The position numbers were made by a program, and so were the translations under genes. This document shows positions 36,001-41,497 of a DNA stretch of 64,000 nt, piece after piece. Every line of letters begins with the position of its first letter. Positions within the stretch are counted from its first letter, which is position 1. The DNA is taken from assembly GCF_900105625.1 (NCBI RefSeq), contig NZ_FNSD01000001.1, positions 1,178,001 through 1,242,000 on the forward strand, in the 5' to 3' direction. The notes beneath the pieces were generated by a model that did no database searches, was not told where the DNA came from, and saw only the letters and a list, made by a program, of their open reading frames with translations. Source of the DNA: Terriglobus roseus (GTDB taxonomy: Bacteria > Acidobacteriota > Terriglobia > Terriglobales > Acidobacteriaceae).

Positions 36001-37029
36001 TCAGTCGAGCTTGCTCAGTTCCGTGCCAATCTTGTCGGGACTGAGAGGGACGTAGCCTTCGTCGGTATCCCTCTGCGATGCGATGATGGCCTGTCCGCTT
36101 TCGGAGAGAAGCATACGAATGTATTCCTTCACAAAGGGGTCCAACGGCTTGCCTGGTTCGCGGTCGATATAAACGTGCAAATAGGCCGGGAATGCCACAT
36201 TTTCGTTGGAGACATTCTCGTAAGTCGGCAGTAAGAACGGTGTGCCTGGTGTTGTTGCCACCGGCAGCGGACGAACCGAAGGCAGCTTTGATGCATCGAA
36301 GAAACCCATCAGCGCGATTCCGTAGGGATCGTCCGCAATGGCTTCTCCGATATCTGCTGCCTTTGGAAGCGCCTCGTAGGTTCGCGCAAACGTCCGGTCT
36401 TCCAGAAACTGCGAACGGAACGCCAGTGTGCCGCCGCTTCCTTCATCCAGGCCGTAGATGTGGATGGCACGCTTGGCCCACGGTCCCTTCAACCCAAGCT
36501 GTGACCAACGTGTGATCGATCCACCTTTCGCGCCTTCCGTAAGAATCTGACGCACCTGTTCGATCGTGAGTCCGCCAATCGGATTTTTTGCATTCACATA
36601 GATGCCCGGAGGGCTCTTACGTCCGTCGCGCGGGCCGAAGGCTGCATAGCCAATGTGAATATCAACGGGGTCATAACCGCGCAACCGATTAAAGGCGAAA
36701 CGATCGTCTTCCCACATGGCACGTGCCATGGGCGCCATCGCGGAGACGCCCGTCTGCAAGGCAGGGATTGCAACCGAGCTGCCCTTCATCACGGGAAGCA
36801 ACTCACGTTTGAAACCAGGGTGTGTCTGGATGAAGAGTGCATCAAACTTTGCCATCATGTCTTCCCATCCGTCATTGCCCACGATCTGGATCTTCCCATC
36901 GCGGGTGAGATAGGACGCAGTATTCGGCACCGTCACCGGCGTCGGCGTGTAGGCCGGGATGCCACTTTGGGCGACTGCGACACTCGACAGGCCGCACACG
37001 GCAAGAACTCGAAATAAAGAACGGAACAT
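36001..37029 (-). CDS. PstS-like periplasmic phosphate/anion-binding protein
   Basis: 342 residues from ATG 37029, chosen for its signal peptide (MFRSLFRVLAVCGLSSVAVAQ) and a GGGAAG ribosome site. Upstream codons belong to the receptor gene. It has the type II periplasmic-binding fold of PstS (IQIVGNDGWEDMMAKFDALF, VDIHIGYAAFG, GGLTIEQVRQILTEG, HIYGLDEGSGGTLAFRSQFL). No pstCAB genes follow. It is 28 bases behind a TonB-dependent receptor. Family knowledge: orphan PstS-like proteins next to TonB receptors occur in Acidobacteria and may capture phosphate or phosphate-containing ligands. The real ligand is not known. Confidence 0.87.
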   Translation of the reverse strand: MFRSLFRVLAVCGLSSVAVAQSGIPAYTPTPVTVPNTASYLTRDGKIQIVGNDGWEDMMAKFDALFIQTHPGFKRELLPVMKGSSVAIPALQTGVSAMAPMARAMWEDDRFAFNRLRGYDPVDIHIGYAAFGPRDGRKSPPGIYVNAKNPIGGLTIEQVRQILTEGAKGGSITRWSQLGLKGPWAKRAIHIYGLDEGSGGTLAFRSQFLEDRTFARTYEALPKAADIGEAIADDPYGIALMGFFDASKLPSVRPLPVATTPGTPFLLPTYENVSNENVAFPAYLHVYIDREPGKPLDPFVKEYIRMLLSESGQAIIASQRDTDEGYVPLSPDKIGTELSKLD

Positions 37030-37057
37030 AATTACTTCCCTTTCAGGCAGGCGCTGT

Positions 37058-39448
37058 CTAGCGCGTCCAGGTGATGGAGCCGATGATGGTGCGGGGTGCG
37101 CCCGGAGCAACGCGCACGCGCGTGCTGCCGCCTTCGAAGTAGCGGCGATCGCCCACGTTCTGCACGTTGAAGTTGACGTTGAGGCGGCTCGCATCATGCA
37201 GCGTGCGAGAGTACGAGAGGTTGGTATCCACACGCGCATACCCCGGTGTCAGGTACGTGTTGTTTGCGTCACCGTAGCGGCGGCCGGAGCCAAACACGCC
37301 AGCGCCAACACCGAGCCCCTTCAACCCACCGTTCGACATGGTGTAGTGCGTCCAGAAGTTCCCTGTGTGTCGCGGTGCACCCGCGAGAAGATTGCCAACG
37401 CGAATCGTGTTGTCCTGCGTGACCTGCGGAATGTTGTAGGCGTACCCGGCAATGATGTTCCAGTCACGCGTCAGTTGGAACGTGTTGTCCGACTCGATGC
37501 CTTTGCTGCGCTGCTCTCCCACGGCAATGGAGTAACCGGTATGGACCGGGTCTGCGGTAAGAACGTTGGTCTGCTTGATCTGAAAAGCGGAGATGGTGGA
37601 AACGTATCGCTGCGAAGGATTCGTGAAGCGGATCCCCGTCTCCATCAACTCGCCTCGCGTGGGCTTGTAAGGAGTGCTGTCGAAAGTCGTACCGATCTGG
37701 GGCTGGAATGACTTCGCATAGGTCGCATACAGCGAGATGCGTTCGATCGGTTGATACACGATGCCCGTACGAGGCGACCATGCCGTGTTGCGGCCGGACA
37801 CATGGGGAACATACGCCCCGCGGGCGCTGAAGTAGGTATCCGTGATCGTCTTGGCGATGTCATACCGCGTTCCCAGCGTGAGCTTCAGATTCTTCCGCAG
37901 CTCAATCTGGTCCTGAAGATAGAAGCCGCCATAGGAGCCATCGGCGTTGTTCGAAATGTCCGGGCCCAGAACACGTGTCGGCAGCGCCGCATAGTTCGGG
38001 TTGTAAAGATCCAGGGTGACCGCACCAAGTGCTGCCGGCCTGGCCTTCGCATAGTTCGGGTTGATCTCACGGTCAAGCTCAAACCCGCCAAGAATCGTAT
38101 GCCCGATCGGACCAGTGCGAATCCGTCCAACAGCCTCGTTGACCCAGTAGTGCGTCTGGAAGTTCTGCTCTGAGGTCGAGTCGTTCAGCGTGATCGTGCG
38201 GTTGTCCTTGGTCGACAGCGATTGCGCGACACGCGAGTTGTAGATCGAGACGCCGACGGAACTGCGCTCGTAACTGCGAAGAACCCAATGGCTGCCGATC
38301 GTCTTGTCGACACTGATGCCCACCTTCCCCTGGCGATCGGGAGCAATCAGCTTGGGGTCGTTCAGGTAAGTGCTGATCGGTACGTTCGCTGGGCGGGTTC
38401 CGACTGCGATGAGGCCCTGGTCGTTCACCGAATTCTGAATCAGGAACTCGCTATAGAAACGCACAGACATCGTCGGATTCACAACCCACGTCAACACTGG
38501 GGCGATGAACGCCTTCTGGGTGAACGCATAGTTGCGGAAGCTCTTCGTATCCAACCCGGACACCGTAAAGCGATAGAGCAACGACTGGGTCTTATTGAAA
38601 GCGCCGGTGAAATCCAGGTTGAGCTGGTTATAACGGAAGCTGCCACTGGTATAGCTGGCATTGAAGGCACGATTAGGACTTGGAGCACGAGTAACAACAT
38701 TCACCACGCCACTCGGATCAAGTCGGCCGAACACCATCGATGACGGTCCCTTGAGCACTTCCACACGCTCGACGTTGCTCAACTCCAACGGCGCACGGTT
38801 TGAGCTGGGATCATTACGGAAGCCGTCCTTGAACTGGTTCATTGTCGTAAAGCCACGAATCGTGATGCTCTCGTAGCGCCCGCCCGACGTCCAAGGGATG
38901 ACCACACCGGCAACATTGCGAAGCACGTCGTTCATACTGCGTGCCTGCTGCTGATCCAGGACCTGTCGCGAGACAATCTGCAAGGACTGCGGTACGTCCC
39001 GCAGCAAGGTCTCTGTACGCGTGCCGATGTCGCTGGCGGCAACGAGGGAACCATTCGAGGTGGACACTGTCACCGTCTCTGCGTTGGATCGCACCGCCAT
39101 GGCAACATCGAAGTGCGACGCAGCCACTGAAGCCAAGACGTGGATCGTCTTCTCCTGCGCCTGAAATCCCTCTGCTTCGGTATGCATCACATACGATCCC
39201 GCGGGCACTTCCACCACAACAACACCACTCTCGTTGGTGGTTGCGCTCTTGACCACGGAGCCGCAGGTCATCGCGATGTGGGCACCGGAGATTGAGGCTC
39301 CCTGCGCATCGGTGACGGCAAGTTCCACGGGCGTCATTGCCCCACCGCAAACCACAGAAGACGATGCGGTTTGCGCAGTAGCGTGCGTCGCGGCCAGAGC
39401 ACTGGCAGCCAGGGCCATCCCCATGGCCCTTGATCGAAATGTTCGCAT
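37058..39448 (-). CDS. TonB-dependent siderophore-type receptor
   Basis: 796 residues from ATG 39448, with AAGGA/AGGAGG sites upstream. The signal peptide ends THATAQ. Residues ~38-115 are a carboxypeptidase-regulatory-like domain (PVELAVTDAQGASISGAHI, GVVVVEVPAGSYVMHTEAEGFQAQ). The plug has the siderophore-receptor pattern (LLRDVPQSLQIVSRQVLDQQ, MNDVLRNVAGVV, ITIRGFTTMNQFKDGFRND, VEVLKGPSSMVFGRLDPSG). A full 22-strand-type barrel ends in the terminal aromatic-rich strand GAPRTIIGSITWTR. It imports a ferric siderophore or similar chelate using TonB energy. A structured RNA element lies in its leader and a PepSY protein precedes it, so iron- or substrate-responsive control is likely. Confidence 0.95.
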   Translation of the reverse strand: MRTFRSRAMGMALAASALAATHATAQTASSSVVCGGAMTPVELAVTDAQGASISGAHIAMTCGSVVKSATTNESGVVVVEVPAGSYVMHTEAEGFQAQEKTIHVLASVAASHFDVAMAVRSNAETVTVSTSNGSLVAASDIGTRTETLLRDVPQSLQIVSRQVLDQQQARSMNDVLRNVAGVVIPWTSGGRYESITIRGFTTMNQFKDGFRNDPSSNRAPLELSNVERVEVLKGPSSMVFGRLDPSGVVNVVTRAPSPNRAFNASYTSGSFRYNQLNLDFTGAFNKTQSLLYRFTVSGLDTKSFRNYAFTQKAFIAPVLTWVVNPTMSVRFYSEFLIQNSVNDQGLIAVGTRPANVPISTYLNDPKLIAPDRQGKVGISVDKTIGSHWVLRSYERSSVGVSIYNSRVAQSLSTKDNRTITLNDSTSEQNFQTHYWVNEAVGRIRTGPIGHTILGGFELDREINPNYAKARPAALGAVTLDLYNPNYAALPTRVLGPDISNNADGSYGGFYLQDQIELRKNLKLTLGTRYDIAKTITDTYFSARGAYVPHVSGRNTAWSPRTGIVYQPIERISLYATYAKSFQPQIGTTFDSTPYKPTRGELMETGIRFTNPSQRYVSTISAFQIKQTNVLTADPVHTGYSIAVGEQRSKGIESDNTFQLTRDWNIIAGYAYNIPQVTQDNTIRVGNLLAGAPRHTGNFWTHYTMSNGGLKGLGVGAGVFGSGRRYGDANNTYLTPGYARVDTNLSYSRTLHDASRLNVNFNVQNVGDRRYFEGGSTRVRVAPGAPRTIIGSITWTR

Positions 39449-39460
39449 GGTGTTCCTTCT

Positions 39461-39476
39461 CCTCCTTTGCGGGAGG
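39461..39476 (-). promoter_or_regulatory. hairpin over the receptor ribosome-binding site
   Basis: In the mRNA sense CCTCC-CGCAAA-GGAGG can fold and hide the GGAGG upstream of the receptor start. It directly follows the 3' strand of the pseudoknot element, so it could be the expression platform of that element. Confidence 0.5.
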
Positions 39477-39478
39477 GG

Positions 39479-39540
39479 TTGTTGTCGATCTCACTCACAC
39501 ACCCGGCGCTTCGCCAAAAGACAACCGTTGCGTGGCTTCT
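39479..39540 (-). promoter_or_regulatory. conserved leader RNA element, copy 2 (before the receptor gene)
   Basis: Shares with copy 1 the blocks GGTTGTCTTTT, GGCGAAGC, CCGG and GAGATCGACAAC in the same order. The pair GGTTGTC with GACAAC is kept. The other helix is weaker here: CACGC with GTGTG, one G-U pair. The spacer between the two 5' strands is three bases in both copies. It lies 31-92 bases upstream of the receptor start. Confidence 0.65.
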
Positions 39541-39556
39541 TGATAGAGAAAGTCTG

Positions 39557-40723
39557 TTAGACCGCTACTGCGTCCGGCGCTCTGTGTGCCGTTCTCACGG
39601 CACGTCTCTTACGGCTTCGCCATGCCAGCCAACGGCGGATGGAAAGCGAAAATCCTGTAACGACAAGTAGCAAGGCTCCAAGCGCAGTAAAAAACGCAAC
39701 CATCTGGCCTGTAAGACCGAACAGCTCGCCCGTGTGGATGAAGTGGGCAAGAAGCCTCCATCTGCGTCCCCGCGTATTGTCCTGGTAGTGCGCCCATTTC
39801 AGGACTTCTGCAGACTTGCGTGCCAGCGTAAGTTGCGATTTGGTGCGAGGATCGCCGCCCTCGCCCTCATCGATGGAGAAGGCAATGTCCTTGCCCTTCG
39901 CCAGGGGGACACGCAACGTCAGGCTCGTCCACGAGGGGTCTTGCATCGCCGCTTTTGCAATCAGTGGATCGAGTTCCTTGTAGCGCGAGACGGGCAGAAC
40001 TTCGCTTGTCTTCAGTTCACGCTCCGCTCGTACTGAAGGCAGCGTATCTCCCGCCGCGCGATACAGCAGGCCGTTGGCCCATGCATAGGCCATGATCAGC
40101 CCGGTCAGCGAGATCGTCACAAGGGGCAGGAACAGCCAGAACCCGGCAACGGTGTGCAGACTCCATTCCGACGCACGGCCGAATCCCTTCCACTTGGGCA
40201 CCAGGCCCACGCGGGTATGCTTCCATGTCCACTGCCGGGGCAGCCACAGGATCAGGCCGCTCAGCAACAGGAAGACAAAAGCAAGAACACACGCATTCTT
40301 GATCGACCGCAGTCCCTCGTTACGCGTTCCTACCAACGCGACATAGCGATGGAGATCATGCACTTCATCAAAGAACCCGCGCAACCGTCCCGCGTTCGTA
40401 TCCAGCAAACGCCCGCTGCATGCGTCCACCAGAAGAAGCCGTCCCTTGGGGAAAGCGATCTCGTCCGGTCGATGCGGATTCGCATAGGACGTCCAGGAAA
40501 GCGGCTGACCATAGCCAAGGCCGGCCGTCGTCGTCAGTATCTCGGATGGAGCAGTGCATGTCTGCGTTTGTGCCGTAGACGTCCTCAGCCTGTGCTCCGA
40601 CCAGCCAATGATCTGCGGCTGAAAGGCCAGGATGCAGCCCGTTACAGCAAGAAAAGCCACCACGGAACCCACGATTATTCCAGTGGTCAGGTGCAGCCAA
40701 AACAGAACGCGGCGAGCGGTCAC
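39557..40723 (-). CDS. PepSY-domain membrane protein
   Basis: 388 residues from GTG 40723. It shows the PepSY_TM layout of iron-reductase-like proteins: a first helix (LFWLHLTTGIIVGSVVAFLAVTGCILAF), a periplasmic PepSY-like part (PHRPDEIAFPKGRLLLVDACSGRLL, FDEVHDLHRY), two central helices (ACVLAFVFLLLSGLILWLP, WSLHTVAGFWLFLPLVTISLTGLIMAYAW) and a last helix after HTGELFGLTGQMVAFFTALGALLLVVTG. Conserved histidines (HDLHRY, LHTVAG, HFIHTGE) could bind haem. Family knowledge: such proteins accompany TonB siderophore receptors and may reduce the imported iron chelate. It is 108 bases upstream of the receptor gene. Confidence 0.92.
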   Translation of the reverse strand: MTARRVLFWLHLTTGIIVGSVVAFLAVTGCILAFQPQIIGWSEHRLRTSTAQTQTCTAPSEILTTTAGLGYGQPLSWTSYANPHRPDEIAFPKGRLLLVDACSGRLLDTNAGRLRGFFDEVHDLHRYVALVGTRNEGLRSIKNACVLAFVFLLLSGLILWLPRQWTWKHTRVGLVPKWKGFGRASEWSLHTVAGFWLFLPLVTISLTGLIMAYAWANGLLYRAAGDTLPSVRAERELKTSEVLPVSRYKELDPLIAKAAMQDPSWTSLTLRVPLAKGKDIAFSIDEGEGGDPRTKSQLTLARKSAEVLKWAHYQDNTRGRRWRLLAHFIHTGELFGLTGQMVAFFTALGALLLVVTGFSLSIRRWLAWRSRKRRAVRTAHRAPDAVAV

Positions 40724-40845
40724 GCTGCACCACTTTGCTTTGCGAAAAGACAGATAACAATGGGACTACTAGGGCGCATTATGGCATCCATAGCCGACCG
40801 CGCACCACATGATCTATAGTGGAGCAACTCGTCAGCCTTCTTTGA

Positions 40846-40904
40846 GGTTGTCGATCTCAGCCTCCTTCCGGGGCTTCGCCAAAAAGACAACCGGGGGAGG
40901 CTTT
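40846..40904 (-). promoter_or_regulatory. conserved leader RNA element, copy 1 (before the PepSY gene)
   Basis: In the mRNA sense, strands occur in the order AGCCTCC (40902-40896), GGTTGTC (40892-40886), GGAGGCT (40865-40859), GACAACC (40852-40846). AGCCTCC pairs perfectly with GGAGGCT, and GGTTGTC perfectly with GACAACC. The two 7-bp helices interlock as an H-type pseudoknot. The loop carries GGCGAAGCC. It lies about 120 bases upstream of the PepSY start. A second copy precedes the receptor gene. I do not recognise a known riboswitch class. Confidence 0.7.
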
Positions 40905-41497
40905 TGTTGTGTCCCCATCATATAGGACGAATCCGGTCCGCGTTGTGGTCAGTTCCAGTACAAAAGAGAATTACCTCTGACCAAATCGTCATTGAAAACC
41001 ATCCATAGCTCCTCAGAGGCGCGCTAAATCGTCCTTAGGTCATCCCCGCCACCAAATCTAATCCCAGAATCGTGGGCACATCGTGGGCTCGGCGGTTGTG
41101 CCGACGGCGTCCTTTCAGGTCCACACAGTCGCGGCCTGCGGGGGATCGCCTTCTCACTATCGCTGGTGCGAGGCCAAGAGACGACCCCAACGAACCTTGT
41201 TCTGGATGCCTATAGGAACAGCGCTTTACCCGCAAATGCCGAAATTATGACGTTCGCCTCCAGAATCTGCTCTGAGATCCGTCATTGGGATTGGGCTCAG
41301 GTCTTGCCAAACGCCCTGCCCGTACAAGTGTTTCTGGATTGTCGACCTATCGCCAATGCACTGATCGACCCGGCTTAGTACCGCTATGTCGGCTTATCGC
41401 CAGCGACCGCCAATGAAGAAAGTGGATTTCCCGAGAAATAAGATTTAGCCCTGGCACATGGGAAGAGAGAGGGACAGGAGACTGGAGTGAACTCCTG
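40905..41497. other. 0.6 kb intergenic, promoter region of the PepSY-receptor operon
   Basis: No gene recognised. The transcript start of the PepSY operon must lie above 40904. Short frames at 41035-41378 on both strands have no recognisable features. Confidence 0.4.

Follow-up and report, generated by a model that had tools for sequence, protein, structure and literature searches.

A strongly covarying leader RNA, probably regulatory, in iron-uptake-type operons of Acidobacteriaceae

An RNA element found before two genes of an iron-uptake-type operon of Terriglobus roseus recurs in mRNA leaders of related bacteria, where a hairpin of freely varying sequence carries a nearly fixed loop and is followed by a nearly fixed tail. 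On balance, we read it as a new class of cis-acting leader RNA, predicted to tune the translation of an iron/Fe-S-limitation regulon in Acidobacteriaceae. The 64-kb stretch of DNA that was analysed (hereafter, the window) contains two copies, both on the minus strand, one before a PepSY_TM gene and the other before a TonB-dependent receptor gene, as the original prediction had stated. The copies were first visible as a 47-nt repeat (70%). The pattern GGTTGTC-N3-9-GGCGAAGC matches the window twice (0.00 matches expected), and GTTGTC-N2-9-GGCGAAGC has two matches genome-wide, both in the window, with one in the reversed control. A DNA search of 200 genomes of the family yielded strong relatives, and 20 sequences including window copy 1, together with an RNAalifold structure, made up a covariance model (R1). 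Copies 1 and 2 are the sole R1 matches in the T. roseus genome at E 0.01, in a search with stricter filters that may lose weak matches. The features of the locus are as follows.

40827..40906, minus strand: element copy 1, model-matched core, in the leader of the PepSY_TM operon (77.4 bits, E 2.4e-17 with model R1, copy 1 being one of its 20 sequences)
40891..40902, minus strand: P1 5' arm, copy 1 (fold and covariation)
40874..40888, minus strand: conserved apical loop GUCUUUUUGGCGAAG, copy 1 (GTCTTTT(T)GGCGAAG exact in 102/120 parsed copies)
40859..40871, minus strand: P1 3' arm, copy 1 (fold and covariation)
40852..40858, minus strand: conserved tail GAGAUCG, copy 1 (each position kept in 111-117/120 parsed copies, which were partly selected by the tail)
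40831..40837, minus strand: P3 5' strand GGCUGAC, copy 1 (fold; partner permutations on relatives, copy 1 lying outside the 43 leaders used)
40792..40798, minus strand: P3 3' strand GUCGGCU, copy 1 (fold)
40920..40939, minus strand: degenerate IscR-Type-1-like palindrome and -10-like TATAT upstream of copy 1 (by eye)
40720..40791, minus strand: short upstream ORF of 23 codons, the TGA of which overlaps the GTG of the PepSY_TM gene (GTGA; sequence)
39557..40723, minus strand: PepSY_TM gene, first in the operon (PF03929, E 6.4e-42)
39477..39540, minus strand: element copy 2, between the PepSY_TM and TonB receptor genes (27.9 bits, E 1.4e-4 with model R1)
39525..39534, minus strand: P1 5' arm CACGCAACGG, copy 2 (pairing with 39496-39506 by eye; not in the minimum-energy fold of copy 2 alone)
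39509..39522, minus strand: conserved loop GUCUUUUGGCGAAG, copy 2 (comparison with relatives)
39496..39506, minus strand: P1 3' arm, copy 2 (compensatory to copy 1, by eye)
39486..39492, minus strand: conserved tail GAGAUCG, copy 2 (comparison with relatives)
39461..39476, minus strand: CCUCC/GGAGG hairpin 3' of copy 2, with its 3' arm at 39461-39465 (fold)
39454..39460, minus strand: probable Shine-Dalgarno sequence AGAAGGA of the TonB receptor gene (sequence)
37058..39448, minus strand: TonB-dependent receptor gene, second in the operon (PF00593, E 1.1e-51; PF07715)
36001..37032, minus strand: periplasmic binding protein-like gene, third in the operon (PF12849, E 3.5e-12)

The structure of the element was established on 131 R1 matches from 80 sources (the window and 79 loci, from related genomes), which are counted here as copies. 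They share a hairpin, P1, of approximately 11-12 bp, a loop GUCUUUU(U)GGCGAAG, exact at the DNA level in 102 of the 120 parsed copies, and a tail GAGAUCG(ACAACC), the GAGATCG of which lies at a near-constant distance; the P1 3' arm measures 14-16 nt in 106/120 copies. By contrast with the loop, the stem is different almost every time (117 distinct stems among the 120 parsed copies), and the two arms of a copy nevertheless match each other: own arms pair at -19.0 kcal/mol versus -11.1 kcal/mol for mismatched arms (127/131 copies), with the own partner ranking first in 39/127 and within the best 5% in 74/127. The same holds for 49 weak copies, which differ from the long ones in the region 3' of the tail (-16.9 versus -9.1; 0/2000 permutations as good). 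Canonical pairing at the five pairs next to the innermost one reaches 80% in the right register and 31-46% when the arms are slid (120 parsed copies). In the model-fitted alignment, 90.6% of cells are paired and 284 are double-change cells, compared with 74 in shuffles, none of 500 shuffles reaching the observed value; 264 of the 284 fall in eight P1 pairs, all of which have changed on both sides. Because loop and tail were used for finding and parsing the copies, their conservation is partly a matter of selection; the covariation of the stem is unaffected. What precedes these genes is thus a structured, aptamer-like domain with covarying helices in mRNA leaders, as expected of a riboswitch. 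Folded singly, copy 1 is more stable than its shuffles (z -2.12), whereas no gain in stability over shuffles is seen for copy 2 (z 0.16 and -0.52), and P1 is not the minimum-energy structure of copy 2 alone.

This architecture differs from the H-type pseudoknot of two interlocked 7-bp helices that the original prediction had drawn for copy 1. Such a pseudoknot is not the structure of the family, because just 11 of the 107 parsed copies form every pair of GGUUGUC/GACAACC. The GCCTCC/GGAGGC helix of copy 1 does exist, as the outer part (half) of the longer P1 hairpin, and the helix of copy 2 that had been described as changed and weakly pairing is better seen as compensatory variation of P1. As for the supposedly conserved helix GGTTGTC/GACAAC, all 7 pairs are rarely formed, but its three innermost pairs, GUC/GAC, are present in nearly all copies, with a small excess over shuffles (5.10 versus 4.95 pairs, 0/1000), and a short GUC/GAC tertiary contact is possible. 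A pairing of the loop with a downstream segment, AGUCUUU/GAAGGCU, is a further candidate by eye; both of its sides hardly vary.

R1 matches (E <= 0.01) were found in 61 of 398 genomes of the family, representing 15 of 79 genera, with up to 12 per genome. Across the phylum, 17 of 297 genomes had matches, 8 in the family and 9 outside it, the latter weak (E 2e-4 to 8e-3). The loop GTCT(3-6)GGCGAAG occurs nowhere in the ten out-of-family loci fetched, of which L092 alone has GGCGAAG together with GAGATCG. Scanning a collection of species genomes with an exact pattern returned 72 stretches, 65 of them in Acidobacteria records (Granulicella, Edaphobacter, Silvibacterium and Terriglobus among them). 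The 7 non-acidobacterial matches have stem energies of -5.7 to -13.0, compared with a mean of -18.9 (weakest -8.0) for 89 acidobacterial matches, and were for this reason taken as probable chance matches. The DNA search also gave many weak matches at query positions 55-84, which were left aside because they probably reflect chance similarity of coding sequences. The element is known so far from Acidobacteriaceae and close relatives only. Rfam 15 gave no match over the whole window at the gathering cutoff, four tRNAs only on 16 related loci, and two chance lncRNA matches only at E up to 10 over positions 39300-41100, in agreement with the original prediction, which had recognised no matching riboswitch class. 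No description of it was found in the literature as judged by titles, which is weak evidence of absence, subscription journals and preprints lying outside the scope of that search. The covariance-model search in Acidobacteriota put forward with the original prediction returned further covarying copies, TonB receptors being among their first genes, and neither of the outcomes named as counting against the prediction, lack of such copies or a match to an Rfam family, was encountered.

The genes behind the element point to iron. For 121/131 matches, the start of an ORF of 90 or more codons lies no further than 400 nt away on the same strand. With stricter limits (150 or more codons, 150 nt), this is true of 100/124 copies; the mirror position, which is occupied by divergent genes, gives 34. 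Of the distinct ORFs that come first, 118 in all, 46 are TonB-type, all with a carboxypeptidase-regulatory domain and 43 with a Plug domain (4 more ORFs have Plug), 16 are proteins with an S4 domain (in 14 of them, the ribosomal one), 13 are PepSY_TM proteins and 6 are ECF sigma factors. Flavodoxin, multicopper oxidase, GH43, AAA, Sel1 and Fic proteins are single first ORFs among the 25 of 43 families listed; the last four, one each, are not tied to iron, and some may be spurious ORFs. Further down, two element operons encode FTR1 and a siderophore-interacting protein, and single proteins of element loci also match CbiX and AraC (the latter divergent). The arrangement seen in the window, a PepSY-TonB pair in which both genes are preceded by the element, is repeated in L039, L136, L147, L126, L035, L038 and L138. 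A zinc regulon, considered at first on account of the S4 paralog without cysteines, was set behind iron/Fe-S in view of PepSY_TM, FTR1, the siderophore-interacting protein, flavodoxin and the IscR-like operator described below. In six loci (L052, L152, L156, L161, L162 and L168), the element precedes a family of 309-333-aa proteins with a Pfam match in 0/6; a small protein comes next in 4/6 of these loci, forming one cluster, the representative of which is a cytochrome c. Five others (L116, L118, L131, L112 and L165) encode a TonB receptor followed by a protein of a CbiX-like cluster, and the one inspected begins like a signal peptide and contains histidines.

A palindrome with a -10-like box lies no more than 120 nt upstream of 53/131 copies, and the palindrome alone upstream of 67/131; the full operator site is absent from downstream control stretches. 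Its consensus, ATATAGGACTAAATTTGTCGTATAT, fits 19 of 25 positions, by hand count, of the IscR Type-1 operator consensus ATASYYGACTRWWWYAGTCRRSTAT, as given in PMC6599224. The likeness to the IscR Type-1 operators concerns the palindrome upstream of the element, a separate DNA site and not the element itself, and binding by IscR is predicted. At copy 1, the palindrome is missed by the strict pattern, but in L147 and L136 the corresponding gene is preceded by clear versions of it. The palindrome was present in all 18 readable leaders of S4 paralogs (19 requested). The window genome has one clear Rrf2 gene (PF02082), which adjoins a class-V aminotransferase gene, by eye a cysteine desulfurase; a similar site begins 47 nt upstream of the putative start of the Rrf2 gene. 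By count, the operator is not enriched in the window genome, since a stricter form of the pattern has one match there and one in the reversed control. This match (L263, G000:C1:3137803) is an IscR-like palindrome before another TonB-type gene, as judged by eye, without the element. Transcription of the element-bearing operons appears to be separately controlled by an IscR-type Fe-S repressor. The core of the original prediction, an unrecognised structured leader RNA, probably regulatory and repeated within an iron-uptake-type operon, is supported by the 131 copies, the covarying P1, the lack of an Rfam match, the iron-type genes and the IscR-like operators.

Downstream of the tail, the long copies have a conserved GGCUGAC that can pair with a variable, GUCAGCC-like strand (P3). 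In 43 leaders, own P3 partners pair better than permuted ones (-13.1 versus -11.5, 0/5000), and so does the downstream strand with the region of the start codon (-11.9 versus -9.7, 0/5000), as exemplified by GACCAGCC with AUGGCUGGCC in L043. Both signals persist in 28 leaders left after thinning of similar ones, and the start-region pairing gives 2/5000 when five GGCTGG-type starts are removed (n=23). Because P3 and the start-region pairing use overlapping bases, we read them as alternatives, and the competition suggests a translational switch. An intervening hairpin, P2 (UCGACAACC/GGCUGACGA, from the tail to GGCUGAC), proposed by RNAalifold and single-sequence folds, is not claimed, as own and permuted partners score alike (-5.20 versus -5.21); it was counted as paired in the model-fitted alignment, with 20 double-change cells. 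P2 would couple the receptor to the switch; as it lacks permutation support, this step is hypothetical. Of the internal copies, window copy 2 and 17 others were inspected, and in most of them the ribosome site is preceded by local hairpins of other kinds. The one at copy 2, CCUCC/GGAGG, had been placed over the ribosome site by the original prediction; the hairpin exists, but the probable Shine-Dalgarno sequence AGAAGGA lies 3' of it, outside. It is kept with changed pairs in L136 and L147 and absent in L039. An upstream ORF that ends on the start of the PepSY_TM gene was seen in 5 of 9 leaders (the window, L147, L136, L038 and L126) and none so coupled in L039, L035, L138 and L040.

The S4-domain proteins among the first ORFs include paralogs of ribosomal protein S4, and that of the window genome lacks the four cysteines of its canonical S4. 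In Thermus S4, the Cys4 site is said to hold a [4Fe-4S] cluster; confirmation of this was not found in the literature as judged by titles. Element and paralog co-occur in 32 genomes (Fisher p 3.6e-28, the genomes being related and not independent), while 14/46 element-bearing genomes lack the paralog and 9/41 paralog-bearing genomes lack the element. In the window genome, the leader of the paralog is without GGCGAAG. Several S4-paralog genes of the window genus (L171, L174, L176, L177, L182 and L185) have a different leader, and in several of these a hairpin of the UUGAGGGACCC/GGGUCCUCAA type appears, by eye, to enclose the Shine-Dalgarno sequence by the start codon; it is perhaps another regulatory RNA.

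These observations bear on the question of whether the element is the site of S4 autoregulation that has spread, with the Cys-less paralog binding it in the leader of the paralog's own mRNA as well as in the iron operons. The 16 S4-domain proteins among the 118 first ORFs and the strong co-occurrence would fit. The alpha operon and rpsD leaders, which are bound by ribosomal protein S4, resemble the element in preceding an S4 gene. Unlike those leaders, the element has no Rfam match, stands mostly before other genes and occurs without the paralog, including in G017, G019 and G271, which are listed as 99-100% complete, and the paralog's leader in the window's own genome has no GGCGAAG. The element is thus found neither only with nor only before S4 genes. 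Since it occurs in genomes without the paralog, S4 is unlikely as the sensor, and we consider spread autoregulation very improbable; S4 looks like a target rather than a sensor. A protein of another kind, for instance an apo-aconitase-like RNA-binding regulator that recognises loop and tail together and either blocks or protects the mRNA, is a more serious candidate, if still an unlikely one: a near-fixed stem length, a near-fixed loop and a short tail are typical of such sites, and the regulon looks Fe-S linked, although the loop lacks the fixed CAGUGH motif of the iron-responsive element and the alternative pairings of the start region point to a self-contained switch. Improbable, too, is that a trans-encoded small RNA docks at the loop UCUUUUGGCGAAGC. 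Such docking would explain why a loop that may be exposed hardly varies although its stem does, but it leaves the conserved tail and the downstream pairings unexplained; beyond the two copies, loop plus flank (TTTTNGGCGAAGCNCC) has 2 sites in its own genome at 1 mismatch, as many as in the reversed control (2). A repeated operator or spread mobile repeat, with no RNA element involved, is hardly credible: up to 12 matches per genome would suit it, but the stem changes on both sides at once, loop and tail being preserved, long same-strand ORFs follow in 100/124 cases versus 34 in mirror position, and a separate DNA palindrome lies upstream in 53/131.

Known riboswitches offer partial parallels. 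The cobalamin riboswitch (Rfam RF00174) is a leader RNA often located before TonB receptors and acting on translation near the start site; the element shares the position before TonB receptors, but is much smaller and matches no Rfam family (at the gathering score, or at E up to 10 over the copies). The NiCo/czcD riboswitch, for which a response to Fe(II) has been reported, would likewise tie an RNA leader to iron, but it controls efflux genes with ON logic, and the element has no Rfam match. That the element is itself a riboswitch is plausible. As a leader RNA that tunes translation, it could work as follows. Loop and tail would form a receptor; when this is occupied, under iron- or Fe-S-replete conditions, GGCUGAC would be held and the downstream strand would mask the start codon (OFF), and when it is empty, P3 would form and leave the start codon free (ON). 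The occupant would most likely be a small ligand, as in a riboswitch, and less likely a protein or a small RNA. Copies located inside an operon, window copy 2 for instance, would allow every gene on a single mRNA to respond. The signal sensed, its link to iron and the equation of the bound state with OFF are what we infer from the sequences.

The most specific version of this reading would make the element an OFF-type, uptake-side riboswitch for iron or Fe-S status, the first such, employed repeatedly within an operon and as many as a dozen times in a genome, and repressing iron acquisition and an iron-sparing Cys-less S4 translationally, under an IscR layer; we offer it tentatively, as a possibility with the odds against it. 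To our knowledge, no uptake-repressing iron riboswitch is known, and that gap would be filled if the element senses iron or a related cofactor directly. In these soil bacteria, an RNA class with strong covariation that Rfam 15 does not contain, apparently a translational switch, is stacked on transcription that is likely Fe-S controlled, and its link to the Cys-less S4 paralog suggests that the composition of the ribosome may be adjusted to metal supply.
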